64,000 bases of DNA from Variovorax sp. IB41. GTDB taxonomy: Bacteria > Pseudomonadota > Gammaproteobacteria > Burkholderiales > Burkholderiaceae_C. The stretch covers positions 62,001-126,000 of the forward strand of contig NZ_JAEFCB010000002.1 in assembly GCF_016405905.1 (NCBI RefSeq). The letters run 5' to 3'. Every line of letters begins with the position of its first letter. Position 1 is the first letter of the stretch. Below the pieces are notes generated by a model. The model saw nothing but the letters and a program-made list of their open reading frames with translations, ran no database searches and had not been told where the DNA came from. Both the position numbers and the translations under genes were made by a program. Below, in pieces: positions 1,231 to 21,363 of the stretch.

Positions 1231-2103
1231 ATGCAGACCTTCGACCTCGAACAACTTCGCACCCTGGCCGCGGTGATCGACGCGGGCAGCCTCACGGCCG
1301 CCGCGCCGCGCGTGTTCCTCTCGCAGTCGTCCGTCAGCGAGCAGATGCGCAAGCTCGAGGAGCGCGCGGGCCAGTCGCTGCTCACGCGCAGCAAGGCCGG
1401 CGTCGCGCCCACCGAGGCGGGCACGCGGCTGCTGGCGTATGCGCGGCGCATCCTCGCGCTCAGCGACGAGGCGTTCCGCGACCTGCGCGGCGAAACCCTG
1501 CAGGGCGAACTGCGGCTGGCCGTGACCGACTACTTCCGTCCCGGCGATCTCACGCAGCTGCTCGGGCGCCTGGGCGAGAGCTATCCGCGGGTGCGGCTGA
1601 ACGTGAGCATCCTCAAGAGCGACGCGCTGCGGGCCGCGTATGCGCATGGCGACTTCGATGTGGGCCTGGCGATGGACATCGTGGGTGCGTCGTCGTCGTC
1701 CTCGGCGCAGGGCGCCAAGGCCTCGCTCATCCGGCGTGAATCGCTCGCGTGGCTGGGCGCCACCGGCCTGCGCGTGGCGCGGGGCGAACCGGTGCGGCTG
1801 CTGGCGCTGCCGGACACCTGCTCGCTGCACCAGTTCACCGTGGCGCTCTTGCGGCGGCGGCGCGTGCCGTATGTGCTCGCGCATGTGGCCTCGGGCGTGG
1901 CGGGGTTGCAGTCGGCACTGGCCGCGGGGCTGGGCGTCGCGTGCCTGAACGAATCGGCGGTGTGCGAGGGCGTCGCCCGGCTGGCGGCACCGCACGGCCT
2001 GCCGGCCTTGCCCAAGGTCGCATTCCAGTTCCTGCCCGGGCGCCGGGGCGAGACGGCGTTCGTGACCCGCGCCCGCGAGATGCTGGCCAGCCATCTGGTG
2101 TGA
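1231..2103 (+). CDS. LysR-family transcriptional regulator
   Basis: Typical LysR-type regulator of about 290 residues. The N-terminal winged helix-turn-helix covers roughly residues 1-62 ('FDLEQLRTLAAVIDAGSLT', then 'LSQSSVSEQMRKLE'), followed by the effector-binding fold. The sequence resembles the HrmR/LrhA-like branch. It is transcribed away from the tautomerase gene, its likely target. I chose the ATG at 1231. An in-frame ATG at 1219 would add four residues but lies inside the right arm of an inverted repeat. No strong Shine-Dalgarno sequence decides between them. The inducer is unknown. Confidence 0.88.
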   Translation: MQTFDLEQLRTLAAVIDAGSLTAAAPRVFLSQSSVSEQMRKLEERAGQSLLTRSKAGVAPTEAGTRLLAYARRILALSDEAFRDLRGETLQGELRLAVTDYFRPGDLTQLLGRLGESYPRVRLNVSILKSDALRAAYAHGDFDVGLAMDIVGASSSSSAQGAKASLIRRESLAWLGATGLRVARGEPVRLLALPDTCSLHQFTVALLRRRRVPYVLAHVASGVAGLQSALAAGLGVACLNESAVCEGVARLAAPHGLPALPKVAFQFLPGRRGETAFVTRAREMLASHLV

Positions 2104-2141
2104 AGCCGCCGGGGTGGCGCGGGATTTGCGTCACCCCCGCC

Positions 2142-2768
2142 ATGGACGCGCCACCACCCACCCACCTGCCGGATCTGCTGCGCCATTCCCGTTTCGATGA
2201 CGCGCAGGCCATCTTTTCGGGCACCTTGTTCGTCGCCATCGCGATGATGCTGTTCGGCCAGGCGGGTCTCCTCACGGGCGGCACGGCGGGCGTCGCGTTC
2301 ATCCTGCACTACGCGACCGGCGTGAGCTTCGGCAAGCTGTTCTTCCTGGTGAACCTGCCGTTCTACTGGTTCGCCTGGCGCCACATGGGCCGGGCCTTCA
2401 CGCTCAAGACCTTCTTCGCGATCGCGCTGCTCTCGGTGATGACCGACTGGGCGCCGCGCTACCTGTCGATCGATTCACTGCATCCGGCGTTTGCCGCGGT
2501 GCTCGGCGGCTTGTTGCTGGGCACGGGTTGCCTCTTCCTCGCCCGCCATCGCGCGAGTCTCGGCGGCGCGACGGTGCTGACGCTGTACCTGCAGGAAAAG
2601 CGCGGCTGGCCCGCCGGCAAGGTGCAGATCGGCATCGACTGCACGGTGGTGCTGCTCGCGCTGTTCGTGATTCCGCCGCAGCGCGTGGGGTGGTCGGTGC
2701 TGGCGGCGGTGGTGATGGGGCTCTTCCTGTGGATCAACCACAAGCCGGGGCGTTACGCGGCGACCTGA
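2142..2768 (+). CDS. YitT family membrane protein
   Basis: A 208-residue integral membrane protein with about five or six hydrophobic segments, beginning around residue 25 ('AIFSGTLFVAIAMMLFGQAG') and including a 'GLLTGGTAGVAFIL' stretch typical of the YitT/DUF161 group. Family members have no settled function, though transport has been proposed. It follows the LysR gene by 38 bases on the same strand and may be read from the same transcript. The start at 2142 gives a short polar N terminus; the same frame open further upstream is antisense noise. Immediately downstream are two structured repeats. Confidence 0.82.
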   Translation: MDAPPPTHLPDLLRHSRFDDAQAIFSGTLFVAIAMMLFGQAGLLTGGTAGVAFILHYATGVSFGKLFFLVNLPFYWFAWRHMGRAFTLKTFFAIALLSVMTDWAPRYLSIDSLHPAFAAVLGGLLLGTGCLFLARHRASLGGATVLTLYLQEKRGWPAGKVQIGIDCTVVLLALFVIPPQRVGWSVLAAVVMGLFLWINHKPGRYAAT

Positions 2769-2805
2769 ATTCGAGGGCTCTTGTTCGGGGCGTGTGCACA
2801 GGCCA

Positions 2806-2879
2806 CCGGGTACTCCCCTCCGCGAATGTCCCCCGGGGCTTCGCCCCTCCTCCTTGATTTCGCTGCGGGGAGCACCCGG
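2806..2879. repeat. Structured repeat element A (terminal inverted repeats around a shared core)
   Basis: A 74-base element with terminal inverted repeats at 2806-2818 (ccgggtactcccc) and 2867-2879 (ggggagcacccgg), matching at 12 of 13 positions. The inside carries a roughly 40-base core (2821-2862) that reappears in inverse orientation at 2965-3004. It contains no gene. It sits between the convergent YitT and amidase genes, so it may also fold in both transcripts. Confidence 0.75.
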
Positions 2880-2948
2880 CACCCTGCGCACTTGGGCACG
2901 CTCTGGGTGAACCGCGATCAACGAGCGCACTGAAGCGCTCGCGCTGGC

Positions 2949-3018
2949 GGTGGGCCCTGTTTCGCGAAATCAAGGAGGAGGGCGAAGCCCGGGGGACATT
3001 CGCGAAACAGGGCCCACC
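2949..3018. repeat. Structured repeat element B (inverse copy of core with different ends)
   Basis: A 70-base element with perfect 20-base terminal inverted repeats at 2949-2968 (ggtgggccctgtttcgcgaa) and 2999-3018. Its inside (2965-3004) is the reverse complement of the core of element A apart from two single-base length differences. Together A and B make a large dyad. This looks like a REP- or MITE-like family; copy number elsewhere in the genome cannot be seen here. Confidence 0.78.
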
Positions 3019-3053
3019 GTCGGCGTGAGTGCAGCCCTGAACAACGCGATGTC

Positions 3054-4463
3054 CTAGCCCCCAGGCACCACCGGCCAAGGCCGCTGCGCTTCGCGAATCT
3101 GCTCGAACGCACGCGACACGCGCAGCACGCCGAGGTCATCGAAGCGGTGCCCCGCGATCTGCAGCCCGATCGGCAACCCGCTCGCCGCATACCCGCAGTT
3201 CACCGACGACGCCGGCTGCTCCGACATGTTGAAAGGCACCGTGAAGCCGATGTGTTCCAGCGGCCGCAGCGGATCGTTGGTCGGCGAGGGCGCCTCGGCC
3301 GCCGCGGGCATGTTCGGCGACACCGGCGAGATCACGTAGTCGAAGCGCGCGCACGCCTGCACCGCCGCCACGCGCGTCGCATGGAACTGGCTGAAGCTGC
3401 GAAACACATGCTCGCCGCTGAATTCGGCCGCGCTCTCTGCCCATTCGCGGATGTAGGGCAGCACCTTGGCGCGCTGGTCGGCGCGCAGGGCTTTCATGTC
3501 CACGAGCGAGCGCATGCGCCACAGGTGGTCCATGCCGTCGAGCATGGCCTGCGACATGAAGGGCTGCATGGTCTCGACGACCGCGCCGGCTTTCTCGAAG
3601 AGGCGCGCGGCGTGCTCGACCGCCGTCTGGATCTCCGGCTCGACCGCCAGGCCGCAGCCCGCGTCGAGCAGCAGCCCGATGCGCAGGCCCCGCAGGTGGT
3701 CGGGCGACACGTCGAAGGCCGCCCAGTCGATGTCCTGCGCCGGCAGGCTCATGCTGTCGCGCGCATCGGGTTTCGAGAGCGCCTGCATCATCAGCGCGGC
3801 ATCGCCGACGGTGCGGGTCATCGGCCCGGCGGCGCGGCCCATGTAGGGCGGATCGATCGGGATGCGGCCCAGGCTCGGCTTGAGCGTGAAGATGCCGCAC
3901 CAGCTCGCGGGCAGGCGCAGCGACCCGCCGATGTCGGTGCCCAGGTGCAGCGGACCGTAGCCGGCCGCGGTCGCGGCGCCCGCGCCGGCGCTGGAGCCGC
4001 CCGGCGTCTTGCCCAGGTCCCAGGGGTTGCGCGCCAGCTTGTGGAAGCTCGAGAGCCCCGAGGACAACATGCCGTAGTCCGGCATGGTGGTCTTGCTCAC
4101 GATCACCGCGCCGGCTTCCTTCAGGCGCGCGGCCGGCGGTGCATCGACAGTCGCCGGCTTCAGGTCGACGGCGGCGGTGCCCGCGGGCATCGGGTCGCCG
4201 CGCGTGGCGATGTTTTCCTTGATGGTGGCCGGCACGCCGTCGAGCGGGCCGAGCGCATCGCCGCGCTGCCAGCGGGCCTCCGACGCGCGCGCCTGGTCGA
4301 GCGCGGCCTCCGGGCGAAAGAGCCAGGTGGCCTGCAGGTGCGGCTCCCAGCGCTCGATGTGCGCGATCACAGCTTGCGTGACCTCGACCGGCGAGAGCCG
4401 CTTGTCGCGGTAGGCGGCCGAGAGCTCTTGCGCGGAGAGTTCGTTCAACGGTGAGGAGGACAC
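3054..4463 (-). CDS. Amidase (amidase-signature family)
   Basis: A 469-residue amidase-signature hydrolase. The catalytic triad is visible: Lys82 in 'GVPATIKEN', the cis-serine in 'GGSSAG' (157-158) and nucleophile Ser181 in 'DIGGSLR'. It hydrolyses amide bonds; the substrate is unknown, and the cytosol is likely because no signal peptide is seen. It is the last gene of a minus-strand peptide-type ABC transporter cluster and starts 8 bases after the stop of a binding-protein gene. That suggests the imported compound is an amide or peptide it cleaves. The start is a GTG at 4463, the only one that fits this spacing and the family N terminus 'SSSPLNELSAQEL'. Confidence 0.88.
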   Translation of the reverse strand: MSSSPLNELSAQELSAAYRDKRLSPVEVTQAVIAHIERWEPHLQATWLFRPEAALDQARASEARWQRGDALGPLDGVPATIKENIATRGDPMPAGTAAVDLKPATVDAPPAARLKEAGAVIVSKTTMPDYGMLSSGLSSFHKLARNPWDLGKTPGGSSAGAGAATAAGYGPLHLGTDIGGSLRLPASWCGIFTLKPSLGRIPIDPPYMGRAAGPMTRTVGDAALMMQALSKPDARDSMSLPAQDIDWAAFDVSPDHLRGLRIGLLLDAGCGLAVEPEIQTAVEHAARLFEKAGAVVETMQPFMSQAMLDGMDHLWRMRSLVDMKALRADQRAKVLPYIREWAESAAEFSGEHVFRSFSQFHATRVAAVQACARFDYVISPVSPNMPAAAEAPSPTNDPLRPLEHIGFTVPFNMSEQPASSVNCGYAASGLPIGLQIAGHRFDDLGVLRVSRAFEQIREAQRPWPVVPGG

Positions 4464-4471
4464 GTCGATCC

Positions 4472-5959
4472 CTATCCCCAGGACAGGGCGGAGAGGTCGT
4501 TCACGAAGATCGGGTTCTCCTTCCAGAGGCCCTTGACGTTCTTCTTGGCGATCGTCGGGAACTGCGGCTGGTACAGGAAGCCGTTGGCCGCGTCGGTGGC
4601 CAGCATCTTCTGCGCGTCGCCCAGCAGCTTGTTGCGCTCGGTGGCGTTGGCCGTGGTCTTGATCTTGTCGAACAGCGTGTTGAAGGCCTTCGACTGGTAG
4701 CCCCAGTAGTAGTCCGACTTGGCGTAGTTGCCCAGGTCGAAGGGCTCGACGTGCGAAATGATCGACAGGTCGTAGTCCTTGTTGCCGTAGGTGCCGCTCA
4801 GCCACTGCGCCCACTCGACGTTCTGCACCTTCACCACGATGCCGATCTTGGCGAGCTGGGCCACGATCACCTCGCCGCCCTGGCGCGCGTAGGGCGGCGG
4901 CGGCAGCGTCATCTTGAGTTCGAGCGGCGTCTTCACGCCGGCTTCGGCCAGCAGCTTCTTGGCCTTCTCGATGTCGAAGGGGTTGACGCCCGTGGTGTCC
5001 ACGAAGCCCGCCGCGCCCGGCACGTAGTGGCTGCCGATGGCCACGCCCAGGCCATCGGCGGCGCCCTCGATCACGGCCTTGCGGTCGATGGCCGCGAGGA
5101 TGGCGCGGCGCACGCGCACGTCGTCCAGGGGCTTCTTCTGGTTGTTGATCGACAGGATGGTCTTGGCGCGCGAGCCCGCCAGGATCACCTGGAACTGCGG
5201 GTTGGCCTTGAACTGCGGCACCACGCGCGTGCCGATGCGGGTGAACACATCGACGTCGCCCGCCATCAGCGCGGCGGCTTGCGCGGCGGTGTCGGCGATG
5301 AAGCGGAAGGTCACCTTGTTGATCTTGGCGGTGGCGGGGCTGCGAAAGCCCTCCCATTTGCTCAGCGTGAGCGAGGAGCCCTTGGCCCAGCTGTCCAGCT
5401 TGTAGGGGCCGGTGCCGACGGGCTTGGTGGCGTTGGCGTCGGCGCTCTTGGGCTCGACGATCACGGCCGTGGCCTGGCCCAGCACGAAGGGCAGGTCGGG
5501 GTCGATTTCCTTGTTGATGACCACCACGGTGTAGTCGTCCACCGCCTGCGTGGCGAGGTTGGCGAAGGTGCGCTTGTCCTTGTTGGTGCTCTTCTCGCCG
5601 CCGGCGCGGTCGAACGAGAACTTGACGGTGGCCGCGTTGAAGGGCTCGCCGTTCTGGAACTTGACGCCGCGCCGGAGCTTGAAGGTGTAGGTCTTCAGGT
5701 CGGGCGAGACTTCCCAGCTCTCGGCCAGGAGCGGCGTGACGCTGCCGTCGGCGTTGATCTTGGTGAGCGTCTCCAGGATGTTGTACTGCACGATCTCCGC
5801 GATGGCGGCGGCCGCGCCGGCCGTCGGGTCCAGGCCCGGCGGCTCCAGCGCCATGCCGATCACGATGGCGTCCTTCCGCCCTTGGGCCATGCCGGCCAGC
5901 GGGGTGGCCAGCGCGACGGTGGCGCCGGCGGTGGTGAGGAGGGTGCGACGGTTCAACAT
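4472..5959 (-). CDS. ABC transporter substrate-binding protein (SBP_bac_5), copy 1
   Basis: A 495-residue periplasmic solute-binding protein of the DppA/OppA family (SBP_bac_5). The N terminus 'MLNRRTLLTTAG' followed by a hydrophobic stretch ending 'AGMAQG' is a signal peptide with an Arg-Arg pair, possibly Tat-dependent. The family block 'LLAESWEVSPDLKTYTFKL' lies near residues 78-96. It is strikingly similar over its length to the next gene upstream, so this is a tandem duplication. Its role is to bind a peptide or peptide-like ligand and deliver it to the DppB/DppC permease. The ATG at 5959 is the only start giving a signal peptide. Confidence 0.9.
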   Translation of the reverse strand: MLNRRTLLTTAGATVALATPLAGMAQGRKDAIVIGMALEPPGLDPTAGAAAAIAEIVQYNILETLTKINADGSVTPLLAESWEVSPDLKTYTFKLRRGVKFQNGEPFNAATVKFSFDRAGGEKSTNKDKRTFANLATQAVDDYTVVVINKEIDPDLPFVLGQATAVIVEPKSADANATKPVGTGPYKLDSWAKGSSLTLSKWEGFRSPATAKINKVTFRFIADTAAQAAALMAGDVDVFTRIGTRVVPQFKANPQFQVILAGSRAKTILSINNQKKPLDDVRVRRAILAAIDRKAVIEGAADGLGVAIGSHYVPGAAGFVDTTGVNPFDIEKAKKLLAEAGVKTPLELKMTLPPPPYARQGGEVIVAQLAKIGIVVKVQNVEWAQWLSGTYGNKDYDLSIISHVEPFDLGNYAKSDYYWGYQSKAFNTLFDKIKTTANATERNKLLGDAQKMLATDAANGFLYQPQFPTIAKKNVKGLWKENPIFVNDLSALSWG

Positions 5960-6192: not shown

Positions 6193-7686
6193 TCAGGCCC
6201 AGTACAGGGCGGCGATGTCGTTCGCGAAGATCGGCGCGTCCTTCCAGAGGCCGCGCAGGTTGCGCCCCGCCACCGTGATGAACTGCGGCTGGAACAGGAA
6301 CACGTTGGCCGCGTCCTCGGCCAGGAGGCGCTGCGCATCGCCGAGGTACCGGAGGCGCTCGGCCGCGCGCGGCGCGTTGCGCGCCTTGTCGAAGGCCTCG
6401 TTGAACTTCGCCGACTGGTAGCCCCAGTAGTACTCGGGCTTGGTGTAGTTCACCAGGTCGAAGGGCTCCACGTGCAGGATCAGCGAGAGGTCGTAGTTCT
6501 TGTTGCCGTAGGTGCCGCTCATCCACTGCGCCCACTCGACGTTCTGGATCTTCGCGACGATGCCCACCTTGGCCAGCTGCGCGGCGATGAGCTCGCCGCC
6601 CTGCCGCGCATAGGGCGGGGGCGGGAGCACCAGCTCCAGTTCGAGCGGCGTCTTCACGCCGGCCTCGGCCAGGAGCCTCTTGGCCTTCTCCACGTCGTAG
6701 GCGTTGATGCCCGTGGTGTCGATGTAGCCCGGCGCGCCCGGCACGTAGTGGCTGCCGATCGGAATGCCGCGCCCGTCCGCTGCCGCCTCGATGACGGCCT
6801 TGCGGTCGATGGCCGCGGAGATGGCGCGGCGCACGCGCACGTCGTCCAGGGGCTTGCGCTTGTTGTTGATGGCCAGGATGGTCTTGCCGCGCGAGGCGTT
6901 GAAGACGACCTGGAAGCGCTTGTCGTTCTGGAACTGCGGAAGGCTCCGCGACACCGAGGCATGCGGGAACAGGTCGACGTCGCCCGCGAGCAGCGCGGTG
7001 GTCTGCGCGGCCGGCTCCGAGATGAATCGGAAGCTCACCTTGCGGATCTGCGCAGCCTCGGCGTGGCGATAGCCGTCCCACCTGGCGAGCACGATGGTCG
7101 AGCCCTTGGCCCAGTTGTCCAGGCGGTAGGGGCCGGTGCCGACGGGCTTGGTGGCGTTGGTCTCCACCGTCCTGGGCTCCACGAGGATGGCCGATGCCTG
7201 GCCGAGCAGGAACAAGAGGTCGGGCTCGATCTCCTTGTTGATCAGCACCACGGTGTGCTCGTCGAGCACCTGCGTCGCGATGTTGGCGAAGGTGCGCTTG
7301 TCCTTGTTGGTGCTGTTGGCCGCGGCTGCGCGGTCGAACGAGAACTTCACGCTCTGCGCGTTGAAGGCCTCGCCGTTCTGGAACTTCACGCCGCGCCTGA
7401 GCTTGAAGGTGTAGGTCTTCAGGTCGGGCGAAACCTCCCAGCTCTCGGCGAGCAGCGGCGTCACGCTGCCGTCGGAGTTGATTTTGGTGAGCGTCTCGAA
7501 GACGTTGTAGAGCACCACCTCGGAGATTTCGGCGCCGGCCTTTGCGGTGGGGTCCAGGCCCGTGGGCTCGAGCGTGAGGCCAATGACCAGCGAATCTTTT
7601 TTCTTTTGCGCGAAGGCATCGAGCGGCAGTGCGAGCGGGGCCAGGGCGGCGGCGCCGGTGGCGAGCAGGGTGCGTCGTTGGAGCAT
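6193..7686 (-). CDS. ABC transporter substrate-binding protein (SBP_bac_5), copy 2
   Basis: A 497-residue SBP_bac_5 periplasmic binding protein, paralogue of the gene at 4472-5959. Shared blocks include 'LLAESWEVSPDLKTYTFKL' and 'VRRAI-AAIDRKAVIE-AADG'. The signal peptide starts 'MLQRRTLLATG' and ends near 'LDAFAQ', with a twin-Arg pair. Differences are concentrated in the second half, which would allow a different ligand preference. It lies 121 bases downstream of the ATPase gene, probably in the same transcript, so one permease may be served by two binding proteins. The start at 7686 is set by the signal peptide. Confidence 0.9.
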   Translation of the reverse strand: MLQRRTLLATGAAALAPLALPLDAFAQKKKDSLVIGLTLEPTGLDPTAKAGAEISEVVLYNVFETLTKINSDGSVTPLLAESWEVSPDLKTYTFKLRRGVKFQNGEAFNAQSVKFSFDRAAAANSTNKDKRTFANIATQVLDEHTVVLINKEIEPDLLFLLGQASAILVEPRTVETNATKPVGTGPYRLDNWAKGSTIVLARWDGYRHAEAAQIRKVSFRFISEPAAQTTALLAGDVDLFPHASVSRSLPQFQNDKRFQVVFNASRGKTILAINNKRKPLDDVRVRRAISAAIDRKAVIEAAADGRGIPIGSHYVPGAPGYIDTTGINAYDVEKAKRLLAEAGVKTPLELELVLPPPPYARQGGELIAAQLAKVGIVAKIQNVEWAQWMSGTYGNKNYDLSLILHVEPFDLVNYTKPEYYWGYQSAKFNEAFDKARNAPRAAERLRYLGDAQRLLAEDAANVFLFQPQFITVAGRNLRGLWKDAPIFANDIAALYWA

Positions 7687-19395: not shown

Positions 19396-21363
19396 TTGAG
19401 CCGCTCTTTCAACCAACAACTCGATCAGCACGGTGCGTGGCGGAGCAACTTCGCCCATCGGCTGCAGTGGCTGTCCCGCTGGCTGACCGAGAACGAGCTG
19501 CTCGACCAGGCCGTGGCCGAGCGCCTGCGGGGCCTGGAACTGCAGATCCGCACCAGCAAGGTGATGGTCGCGTTCGTGGCCGAGTTCTCACGCGGCAAGT
19601 CGGAGCTGATCAATGCGATCTTCTTTGCCGACTACGGGCGCCGCATCATGCCCGCGAGCGCGGGACGCACCACGATGTGTCCGACCGAGCTGGGCTACGA
19701 CCCGGCCATCGCGCCCAAGCTGCGGCTGCTGCCGATCGAAACCCGCCTGGAGCCGCATTCGCTGACGCATTGGCGCGAAAAGTCGACCCGCTGGACCGAG
19801 ATCCCGATCGAGGTCGGCAACGCCGAGCAACTGGCGCAGGCCATGGGCAAGGTGGCCGAAGTGCGCTGGGTGAGCAAGGACGAGGCCCGTGCGCTCGGCT
19901 TCTGGAATCCCGAGACGCCCGACGACAACCCGGTGCAGGACGCCGAAGGCCGCGTCGAAATCCCGCGCTGGCGCCATGCCGTGCTCAACATGCCGCACCC
20001 CTTGCTGGAGCAGGGGCTGGTCATTCTGGACACCCCTGGCCTGAACGCGATCGGCGCCGAGCCCGAACTCACGGTGAGCCTGATTCCGCAGGCGCACGCC
20101 GTGGTCTTCATCCTGGGCGCCGAGACCGGCGTGACGCGTTCCGACCTGTCGATCTGGCGCGAACACCTCATCACCGAGGACGAAGGCGGCGACACGCGCT
20201 TCGTCGTGCTCAACAAGATCGACACGATGTGGGACTCGCTGAGCACCCACGCGCAGATCGAATTGCAGATCGAGCGCCAGCGCGACAGCGCGGCCCGGCT
20301 GCTCGACGTGCCGCTCGCGCAGGTGCTGCCGGTGTCCGCGCAGAAGGGCCTGCAGGCGAAGATCCAGCACGATGCGCGCCTGCTTGAAGCCAGCCGCCTG
20401 CCCGCGCTCGAAGCCCTGCTGGGCGAAGGCGTGCTCGGCAAGCGCGAGACCATGCTGCGCCTGGCCGTCGATGCCGGCATGACCGCGCTGCGCACCGAGG
20501 CCGAACGCATCCTGAAGGTGCGCCAGCGCGACCTGTCGGAGCAGGCGCTCGAGCTGCAGGGCCTCCGCGGCAAGAACGTCTCGGTGATCCGCCACATGCG
20601 CTCGCGCATCGACCAGGAACACGCCGAGTTCGAGGGCAGCAACACCCGCATCCTGGCGTTGCGCTCGGTGCAGGGCAAGCTGCTGCGCGAGGTGTATGCC
20701 GTGCTGGGCCGCACCGCGCTCAAGGCCGACATGGTGCGGCTGTCGGCCGCGCTCAAGCGCCCCGGCATCAAGCTCAATGTGCGTAAGGTGTACGGCGAGA
20801 CTTTCGATTCGCTGCGCAACAACCTGCGCGAAGTGCAGGCGACGACGGCCGAGATCCAGTCGATGCTGCACGCCACCTTCCGCCAGCTCAACGCCGAGCA
20901 GGGCTTCACCCTGCAGGCGCCGGCCGAGCCCGATCTCACGGGCTTCGAGCAGGAGTTGAGCCAGATCGAGCGCAGCCACATTCATTACCTGGGCGTGGGC
21001 AATTTGCTCAAGCTCGCGCAGGCCGATTTCTGCGACAAGCTGGTTCGCGCGCTGGCCAGCCGGCTGCGACTGGTCAACGAGGCCGCGATGACCGAGGTCG
21101 AGCGCTGGAGCAAGGGCGCGAGCGCGCAAATCGATGCGCAGCTCAAGGAGCGTCGCCGCAACTTCAGCAAGCGCATCGAGGCGATCGAGCGCATCCAGAA
21201 CGCGGCAGGCAATCTTGACGAGCGGCTGCTCGAGTTGGCGGCGCAGGAAACCAACCTCGCCGAGCTGCATGCCCGCCTGCGTGAATTCACCTCGCTGATC
21301 ACGCAGCAAGGCAAGCCGCAGGCCGTTGCTGCGACCCCCTTCAGCGAGTTGCGTGCGGCCTGA
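19396..21363 (+). CDS. Dynamin-like GTPase (orphan)
   Basis: A 655-residue dynamin-family protein. The GTPase domain has a P loop 'AEFSRGKSEL' (about 62-71), a switch region 'AGRTTMCPTEL', the G3 motif 'ILDTPGLNAIG' (about 213-223) and G4 'LNKID'. Long helical segments after about residue 350 fit the stalk of bacterial dynamins. Such proteins remodel or protect membranes; the specific role is unknown. It occurs singly rather than as the tandem pair seen in many bacteria. The start appears to be TTG at 19396, since no ATG or GTG lies upstream in frame and the first ATG (M57) would remove the region before the P loop. The end overlaps the region before mutY. Confidence 0.85.
   Translation: MSRSFNQQLDQHGAWRSNFAHRLQWLSRWLTENELLDQAVAERLRGLELQIRTSKVMVAFVAEFSRGKSELINAIFFADYGRRIMPASAGRTTMCPTELGYDPAIAPKLRLLPIETRLEPHSLTHWREKSTRWTEIPIEVGNAEQLAQAMGKVAEVRWVSKDEARALGFWNPETPDDNPVQDAEGRVEIPRWRHAVLNMPHPLLEQGLVILDTPGLNAIGAEPELTVSLIPQAHAVVFILGAETGVTRSDLSIWREHLITEDEGGDTRFVVLNKIDTMWDSLSTHAQIELQIERQRDSAARLLDVPLAQVLPVSAQKGLQAKIQHDARLLEASRLPALEALLGEGVLGKRETMLRLAVDAGMTALRTEAERILKVRQRDLSEQALELQGLRGKNVSVIRHMRSRIDQEHAEFEGSNTRILALRSVQGKLLREVYAVLGRTALKADMVRLSAALKRPGIKLNVRKVYGETFDSLRNNLREVQATTAEIQSMLHATFRQLNAEQGFTLQAPAEPDLTGFEQELSQIERSHIHYLGVGNLLKLAQADFCDKLVRALASRLRLVNEAAMTEVERWSKGASAQIDAQLKERRRNFSKRIEAIERIQNAAGNLDERLLELAAQETNLAELHARLREFTSLITQQGKPQAVAATPFSELRAA

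Follow-up and report, generated by a model that had tools for sequence, protein, structure and literature searches.

A paired-hairpin repeat of Variovorax and other genera, with a near-invariant core, compensated stems and strand-biased wobble pairs

In this study, we used comparative sequence analysis to characterize an intergenic repeat in a stretch of 64,000 nucleotides from Variovorax sp. IB41 (the window; assembly GCF_016405905.1, contig NZ_JAEFCB010000002.1, positions 62,001 to 126,000 of the forward strand). Two hairpins, A and B, which carry the same core in opposite orientation, are halves of a single element of ~260 bp at window positions 2783 to 3042, because the whole stretch recurs as a unit in the genome. 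As far as sequence comparison reaches, its properties are compensated stems, a strand bias within them, a near-fixed core, a divergent layout (A on the minus and B on the plus strand), dozens of copies in this genome and a place behind genes. With belief and doubt about evenly balanced, we read the repeat as a non-autonomous, two-hairpin element resembling REPINs (repetitive extragenic palindrome, REP, doublets forming hairpins), which would fold as one specific strand and be moved by a trans-acting factor other than the Y1 transposase of the genus. Among known systems it works most like a REPIN, that is, as paired, strand-specific hairpins spread within genomes.

Element structure and copies

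A first-pass annotation of this DNA had described A and B as two elements sharing an inverted core, each framed by terminal repeats of its own. Arms and core are present as it described them: the arms of A pair at 12 of 13 positions and those of B at 20 of 20, and the cores (43 nt in A, 41 nt in B) align in opposite orientation with two gaps and no mismatch. The supposed terminal repeats, however, are the outer stems of one repeat and not element ends; the ends are likely GTTCRGGGC/GCCCYGAAC, a 9-bp, imperfect terminal inverted repeat delimited by the alignment of own-genome copies and by their flank profile. The B arms lengthen to 34 nt at 88% identity (2935–2968/2999–3032), and no other arms in the window pair perfectly over 20 bp around a loop of at most 60 nt (this pair appears in two overlapping registers), compared to none in 20 first-order Markov resamples. 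Neither core pattern occurs again in the window at up to three mismatches. A weak match to the hairpin model at 21247–21323 on the minus strand (15.1 bits, E 0.23) has a stem but lacks the core and is probably due to chance.

Elsewhere in the genome the repeat is abundant, with 29 divergent pairs and 18 single halves. Copies were counted by matching the left part of the core at up to two mismatches, with chance matches struck by eye, so that more decayed copies are missed; in addition, three contigs end inside a repeat copy (C12, C32 and C13, at loci L265, L266 and L276), which truncates three of the singles, and some singles may thus be cut pairs. Own-genome stems fall into three types, A, B1 and B2, which combine in the 29 pairs as A+B1 (13), A+B2 (15) and A+A (1), the lone A+A pair being probably L019, in which the B half keeps a left arm of type B2 while its right arm is degenerate. 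Taking this and other genomes together, cores less than 400 bp apart are divergent in 91 of 93 cases, and in none of the 91 pairs are the partner arms (20 nt, ungapped) at least 80% alike. In the own genome, the arms of partners are on average 0.43 alike, compared to 0.84 for the best half of another pair. No copy was called inside a gene by our codon-usage gene caller. These data bear out the earlier suggestion of a modular, multicopy family, similar to REPs or to miniature inverted-repeat transposable elements (MITEs), in which one core sits in several frames; the family extends to other genera, and its copies keep paired arms although the arm sequences differ.

Fold, strand bias and core

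The structure predicted for either half, on its respective sense strand, is a long stem with more than 20 pairs in its outer part and an inner helix of 5 bp; an internal loop (RTMAAGGRGGAG/CGGRGGACA), which bears the small inner hairpin, interrupts this stem. Fold z-scores reach −10.1 for B (2935–3032, plus strand) and −5.5 for A (2800–2885, minus strand). An ordinary alignment, comprising 49 of the 72 distinct own-genome halves, shows changes on both sides at 16 of the 26 predicted pairs; a broader one, with 87 halves drawn from many genera, shows them at 25 of 26, with 96.2% of cells pairing and a covariation score of 0.721, compared to 0.187 for shuffled and at most 0.109 for slid alignments. 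This larger alignment (A3) was fitted to the structure model, and the ordinary own-half alignment and a set of ungapped anchored arms served as its controls. In the anchored arms, pairing spans ~30 positions including the inner helix, usually with a 3-nt mismatched stretch.

The stems also distinguish the two strands. On the strand that reads GAAATMAAGG, G·T pairs outnumber A·C pairs at all 22 outer stem positions tested (556 to 55 in 270 halves; the limit of four core substitutions set in collecting them leaves cores of greater divergence under-represented). When each locus contributes a single half, the excess persists at 105 to 13 over 57 loci; G·T leads at 14 of the 18 pairs, trails at 2 and ties at 2. 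A mutation, replication or transcription bias acting on one strand cannot yield this excess, given that the two halves of each pair are oriented oppositely. In 38 copies between tandem genes, the half read in sense by the upstream gene holds 57 G·T and 1 A·C pairs and the half read in antisense 68 and 3, a comparison that bias inherited from source copies could blur. Equal bias in both halves speaks against read-through messenger RNA as the site of selection, and strand-specific DNA fits it better than mRNA. We regard the strand bias as a hint of single-strand DNA processing on one strand.

The core, RTMAAGGRGGAG..CGGRGGACA, is almost invariant, in contrast to the inner hairpin and to more than 20 pairs of the outer stem, which vary under strong compensation. 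Within the core, one loop position on each side changes together with its counterpart: this contact is A/G in 243, G/A in 22, A/A in 4 and G/G in 1 of the 270 halves (A/G 76, G/A 9 and two others in the 87 diverse halves), and the exchange from A/G to G/A is present in several genera. In 13 of the 87 halves, the inner helix GCGAA/TTCGC is replaced by a GCGAA/TGAGC-like form, together with a change from A to G at the next loop base; this variant reads as tandem G·A pairs. Both the loop exchange and the helix variant are signs of a non-Watson-Crick module; a GG-R-GG quadruplex or purine stack in the core is speculation.

Distribution

Within the genus, the repeat occurs in 49 of 61 genomes and is missing from 12. 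In the family of the window it matches in 70 of 150 genomes and 66 of 141 genera, and in a second family of another order, which we infer to be the Xanthomonas group, in 21 of 149 genomes and 7 of 54 genera; these counts include the window's own genome wherever it was sampled. A class-wide sample gave 4 matches in 369 genomes. Up to 64 candidates were scored per genome in the genus, up to 24 in each family and up to 10 class-wide, so that copy numbers are lower bounds and the class-wide scan is insensitive. Among the matches listed (80 loci of 117 stretches), the group around the window is represented by Variovorax, Ramlibacter, Rhodoferax, Hydrogenophaga, Pseudorhodoferax, Xylophilus and a Brachymonas metagenome-assembled genome (MAG); outside that group, the matches come from Thermomonas MAGs, Lysobacter, Luteimonas, Stenotrophomonas, a Xanthomonas MAG and a Stagnimonas MAG, names that depend, for MAGs, on bins that can be wrong. 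In a plasmid collection, the repeat is found on three Variovorax replicons of 1.2 to 1.3 Mb. No copy was detected in viral contigs searched with the strict pattern or in a phage collection searched with the window copy as the query. In one gammaproteobacterial genome (L397, 954–1620), a copy lies ~430 bp downstream of a 5S rRNA gene.

Mode of action and alternative explanations

In the reading that we favor, the object of selection would be the folded single DNA strand, and the purine internal loop would be the recognition site of a trans-acting single-strand DNA-processing factor that is not the Y1 transposase of the genus. The two halves would serve as left and right ends, and their unlike stems would promote local folding over cross-pairing between halves. 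Copies may persist mostly downstream of genes since they are tolerated there, and any effect on mRNA 3′ ends would be a possible by-product.

Several observations weigh against this reading. No mobilizing enzyme was found, and the genes next to the repeat look ordinary: 542 genes around 186 loci include no single recurrent family, those common to most loci being presumably widespread transporters and the like. At the single site compared, with the element in four species and putative scars in two, no new insertion was seen, and its history equally fits a fixed, a functional or a merely relict feature. Wobble pairs cannot separate DNA folding from RNA folding, arm-to-arm template-switch repair can also produce compensation in palindromes, and many halves are kin by descent, so that the counts are not independent events. 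Finally, the contrast between partners is slight in other genomes (0.46 alike, compared to 0.51 for the best halves elsewhere), which leaves the argument from unlike partners resting on the own genome.

The alternative that survives best, which we nonetheless consider unlikely, is that the hairpins act as structured RNA at mRNA 3′ ends, by stopping transcription, protecting the end or binding a protein at the AAGGAGGA loop. The placement of the copies agrees with it. Among 100 copies, of which 42 are from the own genome, the neighboring genes are convergent in 35 cases (own genome 19), tandem in 60 (22) and divergent in only 5 (1), and in 77 the hairpin edge is no more than 60 bp from the 3′ end of a gene. 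The other 46 gaps of at least 10 bp in the window divide into 6 convergent, 32 tandem and 8 divergent (Fisher p 0.025 for divergent). Gene orientations were assigned with our own codon-usage caller, for which this genome was the training set, and 29 of 129 copies were excluded for want of two called neighbors. A wobble bias and a near-fixed internal loop are likewise typical of RNA, and the hairpins have stayed intact at the orthologous site despite drifted flanks. Yet placement behind genes is also described for REPs (PMC3733652 section 15), the same bias is seen in halves that adjacent genes read as antisense, and each transcript meets the antisense hairpin of the pair first. A consensus scan found no U-run terminator between 2600 and 3200 (0 sites, 0.4 expected by chance). 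The proposal that the pair works as a bidirectional terminator between convergent genes is unproven: there is no U-run, only 19 of the 42 own-genome copies lie between convergent genes, and the strand bias ignores transcription. In its fold-first, core-invariant architecture the repeat does resemble Rfam RNA families; it differs from them in that no family of Rfam 15 reaches its gathering score at the element, and nine loci from other genera gave only subthreshold miRNA-type matches at the hairpins. Near one copy, a subthreshold RsmY-like match was recorded (L401, 1850–1928; 25.9 bits compared to a threshold of 57).

Next in standing, and improbable in our judgment, is that the repeat is a true REPIN, moved by the single-copy Y1 transposase of the genus, which is similar to REP-associated tyrosine transposases (RAYTs), or by a RAYT since lost. 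Like REPINs and bacterial interspersed mosaic elements (BIMEs), as described in PMC3116915, PMC2817692 and PMC3733652, the repeat forms doublets in inverted orientation around a spacer, lies between genes in dozens of copies, most of them following a gene, and has strand-specific hairpins with compensated stems as well as singles that are read as remnants. In contrast to the REPs of those accounts, a half measures ~105 nt here instead of 20 to 40, the halves of the own genome have unlike stems, the constant part is the internal loop instead of a GTAG head at the foot, no RAYT adjoins the repeat at 137 places scanned, and one core spans two families of different orders. Before the inner helix, the 270 halves do carry a tetranucleotide faintly like the GTAG head (GCAG in 209 and GTAG in 10, thus 219 in all, with others in 51), but it lies within the stem and not at its foot, and it is TTCG in 13 of the 72 own halves. 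No GT(A/G)G or CGTC head was seen at the foot of the outer stem in the own-genome copies and their flank profile.

The Y1 genes themselves argue against such a link, which the first-pass annotation had suggested looking for. The own genome has one Y1_Tnp gene, and 58 of the 61 genus genomes have a Y1 gene, in one copy in 57 of them and with two hits in G055; by eye, genomes rich in the element tend to have the higher-scoring Y1 genes. However, all 12 element-free genomes keep the gene, and 17 of 71 element-bearing genomes searched have no Y1 hit (the 71, out of 91, comprise all 21 of the second family and 50 of the 70 of the own family, the 20 omitted being mostly low-copy). No repeat lies at any of the 58 genus Y1 loci (~4 kb on each side where the contig allowed) or, outside the genus, at any of 79 Y1 places from 54 genomes that carry the repeat (30 with ~1.5 kb and 49 with ~3 kb on each side, the latter where the contig allowed), and a second, partial Y1 locus of G055 (L331), which is not among the 58, was scanned and holds no core; as a positive control, the scan model recovers the window copy at 91.7 bits. 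RAYT genes are described as always flanked by two inverted REPs (PMC2817692), so that the repeat does not qualify as a RAYT-linked REP. With 0 of 137 places carrying the repeat, a simple RAYT linkage was rejected, although loss of a REPtron by deletion has been reported (PMC3733652 section 16). As both the transposase link and the head motif came out negative, we do not file the element as a REPIN. One Y1 transposase-like gene outside the window (G000:C13:35301-35636; L061, L062) has the motifs NHFHLL and NPVRAG and no adjoining hairpin repeat, and looks domesticated. A possible autonomous copy, in which the two halves would enclose a gene, was also discarded: in G026, what lies between two cores ~640 bp apart is an ordinary-looking small gene.

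Two further groups of repeats deserve comparison. TIRtrons and TIRYTs have a GGGGWSAS motif (PMC3733652 section 16; PMC6006769 section 20), and the core of our repeat contains GGGGACAT, which agrees with it at 7 of 8 positions. The motif occurs in full in 12 of the 87 diverse halves, and without its last letter in 73; being short and degenerate, it may match by chance, and the own Y1 locus has one such site, compared to 2.35 expected by chance. The two differ in that none of the 137 Y1 places carries our repeat, and the comparison is one of motif descriptions, not of repeat sequences. Owing to this motif, TIRYT repeats are the nearest published lead. CGTC-tagged REPs, in turn, are mostly dimers without a linked transposase, as is the case here, but are described with 8- to 9-bp stems and a CGTC tag, neither of which is present in our repeat (PMC3733652 sections 6 and 16). 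We recognized no published description of the repeat in a search to which most subscription journals were closed, which is not proof of novelty.

It is also conceivable, with a slim chance, that these are old, immobile repeats kept alike by gene conversion, their hairpins corrected by template switching. The orthologous site lends some color to this: the element is also present in the relatives G020, G011 and G004, where hairpin B is of type B2 in all three and of type B1 here, both arms having been exchanged together. At this site the hairpins are kept, whereas by eye there is hardly any alignment in the flanks beyond the element. In G018 and G017, 41 bp and 92 bp are present, with what we read as scars of the element, and between the aligned gene ends there are 285 bp here, 5 bp in G016 and 9 bp in G009. 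Gene conversion leaves unexplained, however, both the bias of G·T over A·C and the exchange from A/G to G/A in the loop in several genera. Lastly, a MITE of a classical DDE insertion sequence, to which the terminal inverted repeat GTTCRGGGC/GCCCYGAAC and the moderate copy number would be suited, is very improbable, given that the target duplications which the first-pass annotation suggested looking for show no excess over shuffled flanks (3 to 9 bp, offsets up to 4, in the 37 pairs with both ends recognized) and that a strand-specific stem is not expected of a double-stranded substrate, a judgment reached without searching for a parent insertion sequence that shares these ends.

Beyond the REPIN-like element set out above, a bolder possibility, which we put forward tentatively and with less than even confidence, is that the repeat belongs to an undescribed superfamily of two-ended hairpin elements, present in two proteobacterial orders, in which a purine-loop, non-Watson-Crick module would be recognized on one strand by an enzyme unrelated to RAYTs. 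The module would comprise the A·G contact that flips to G·A and the switch of a stem to tandem G·A pairs, and possibly a GG-R-GG purine stack or a two-layer quadruplex. For the question of how bacterial palindromic repeats spread without a travelling transposase, this repeat offers a clean case: it combines a near-fixed recognition core with free stems, and its strand bias is an inherent mark of folding as a single strand. Moreover, the same genus contains both carriers and non-carriers, one orthologous site is occupied in some relatives and empty in others, and the core could be used directly as bait for a protein that binds it.

Features of the locus

The features of the element and its two flanking genes are collected in Table 1.

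Table 1. Features of the two-hairpin repeat and its neighbors (window coordinates)
Feature	Position	Strand	Basis or remark
Whole two-hairpin composite	2783–3042	none	Recurs as a unit; bounded by GTTCGGGGC / GCCCTGAAC
Left terminal inverted repeat, GTTCGGGGC (likely end)	2783–2791	+	Own-genome copy alignment, flank profile
Hairpin A, stem type A	2788–2895	sense −	Covariance model R2, 91.7 bits
Part of outer stem of hairpin A, 3′ arm in sense	2806–2818	−	12/13 with 2867–2879
Part of outer stem of hairpin A, 5′ arm in sense	2867–2879	−	12/13 with 2806–2818
Constant core of A: GCGAAATCAAGGAGGAG - inner hairpin GGGCGAAGCCC - CGGGGGACATTCGCG	2821–2863	−	
Central spacer between hairpins (~35 bp)	2896–2930	none	Moderately conserved among copies
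Hairpin B, stem type B1	2931–3037	sense +	Covariance model R2, 89.8 bits
B arm, 5′	2949–2968	+	20/20 with 2999–3018
B arm, 3′	2999–3018	+	20/20 with 2949–2968
Constant core of B	2964–3004	+	
Right terminal inverted repeat, GCCCTGAAC (likely end)	3034–3042	+	Own-genome copy alignment, flank profile
Upstream gene, membrane protein, presumably YitT-like	2100–2768	+	Codon-usage gene call; ends 14 bp before the element
Convergent gene, presumably amidase-like	3054–4448	−	Codon-usage gene call; ends 11 bp after the element

Beyond the terminal repeat, the inverted-repeat similarity fades gradually outward, with no sharp edge. In some copies, degenerate tandem units such as GCGCCCYGAACARC follow there (2769–2782 and 3043–3053 in the window; also at L002, L229, L230 and L232). 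Next to the presumed amidase gene, two similar proteins are encoded in tandem (4472–5959 and 6193–7686), which we take to be of the extracellular solute-binding type.
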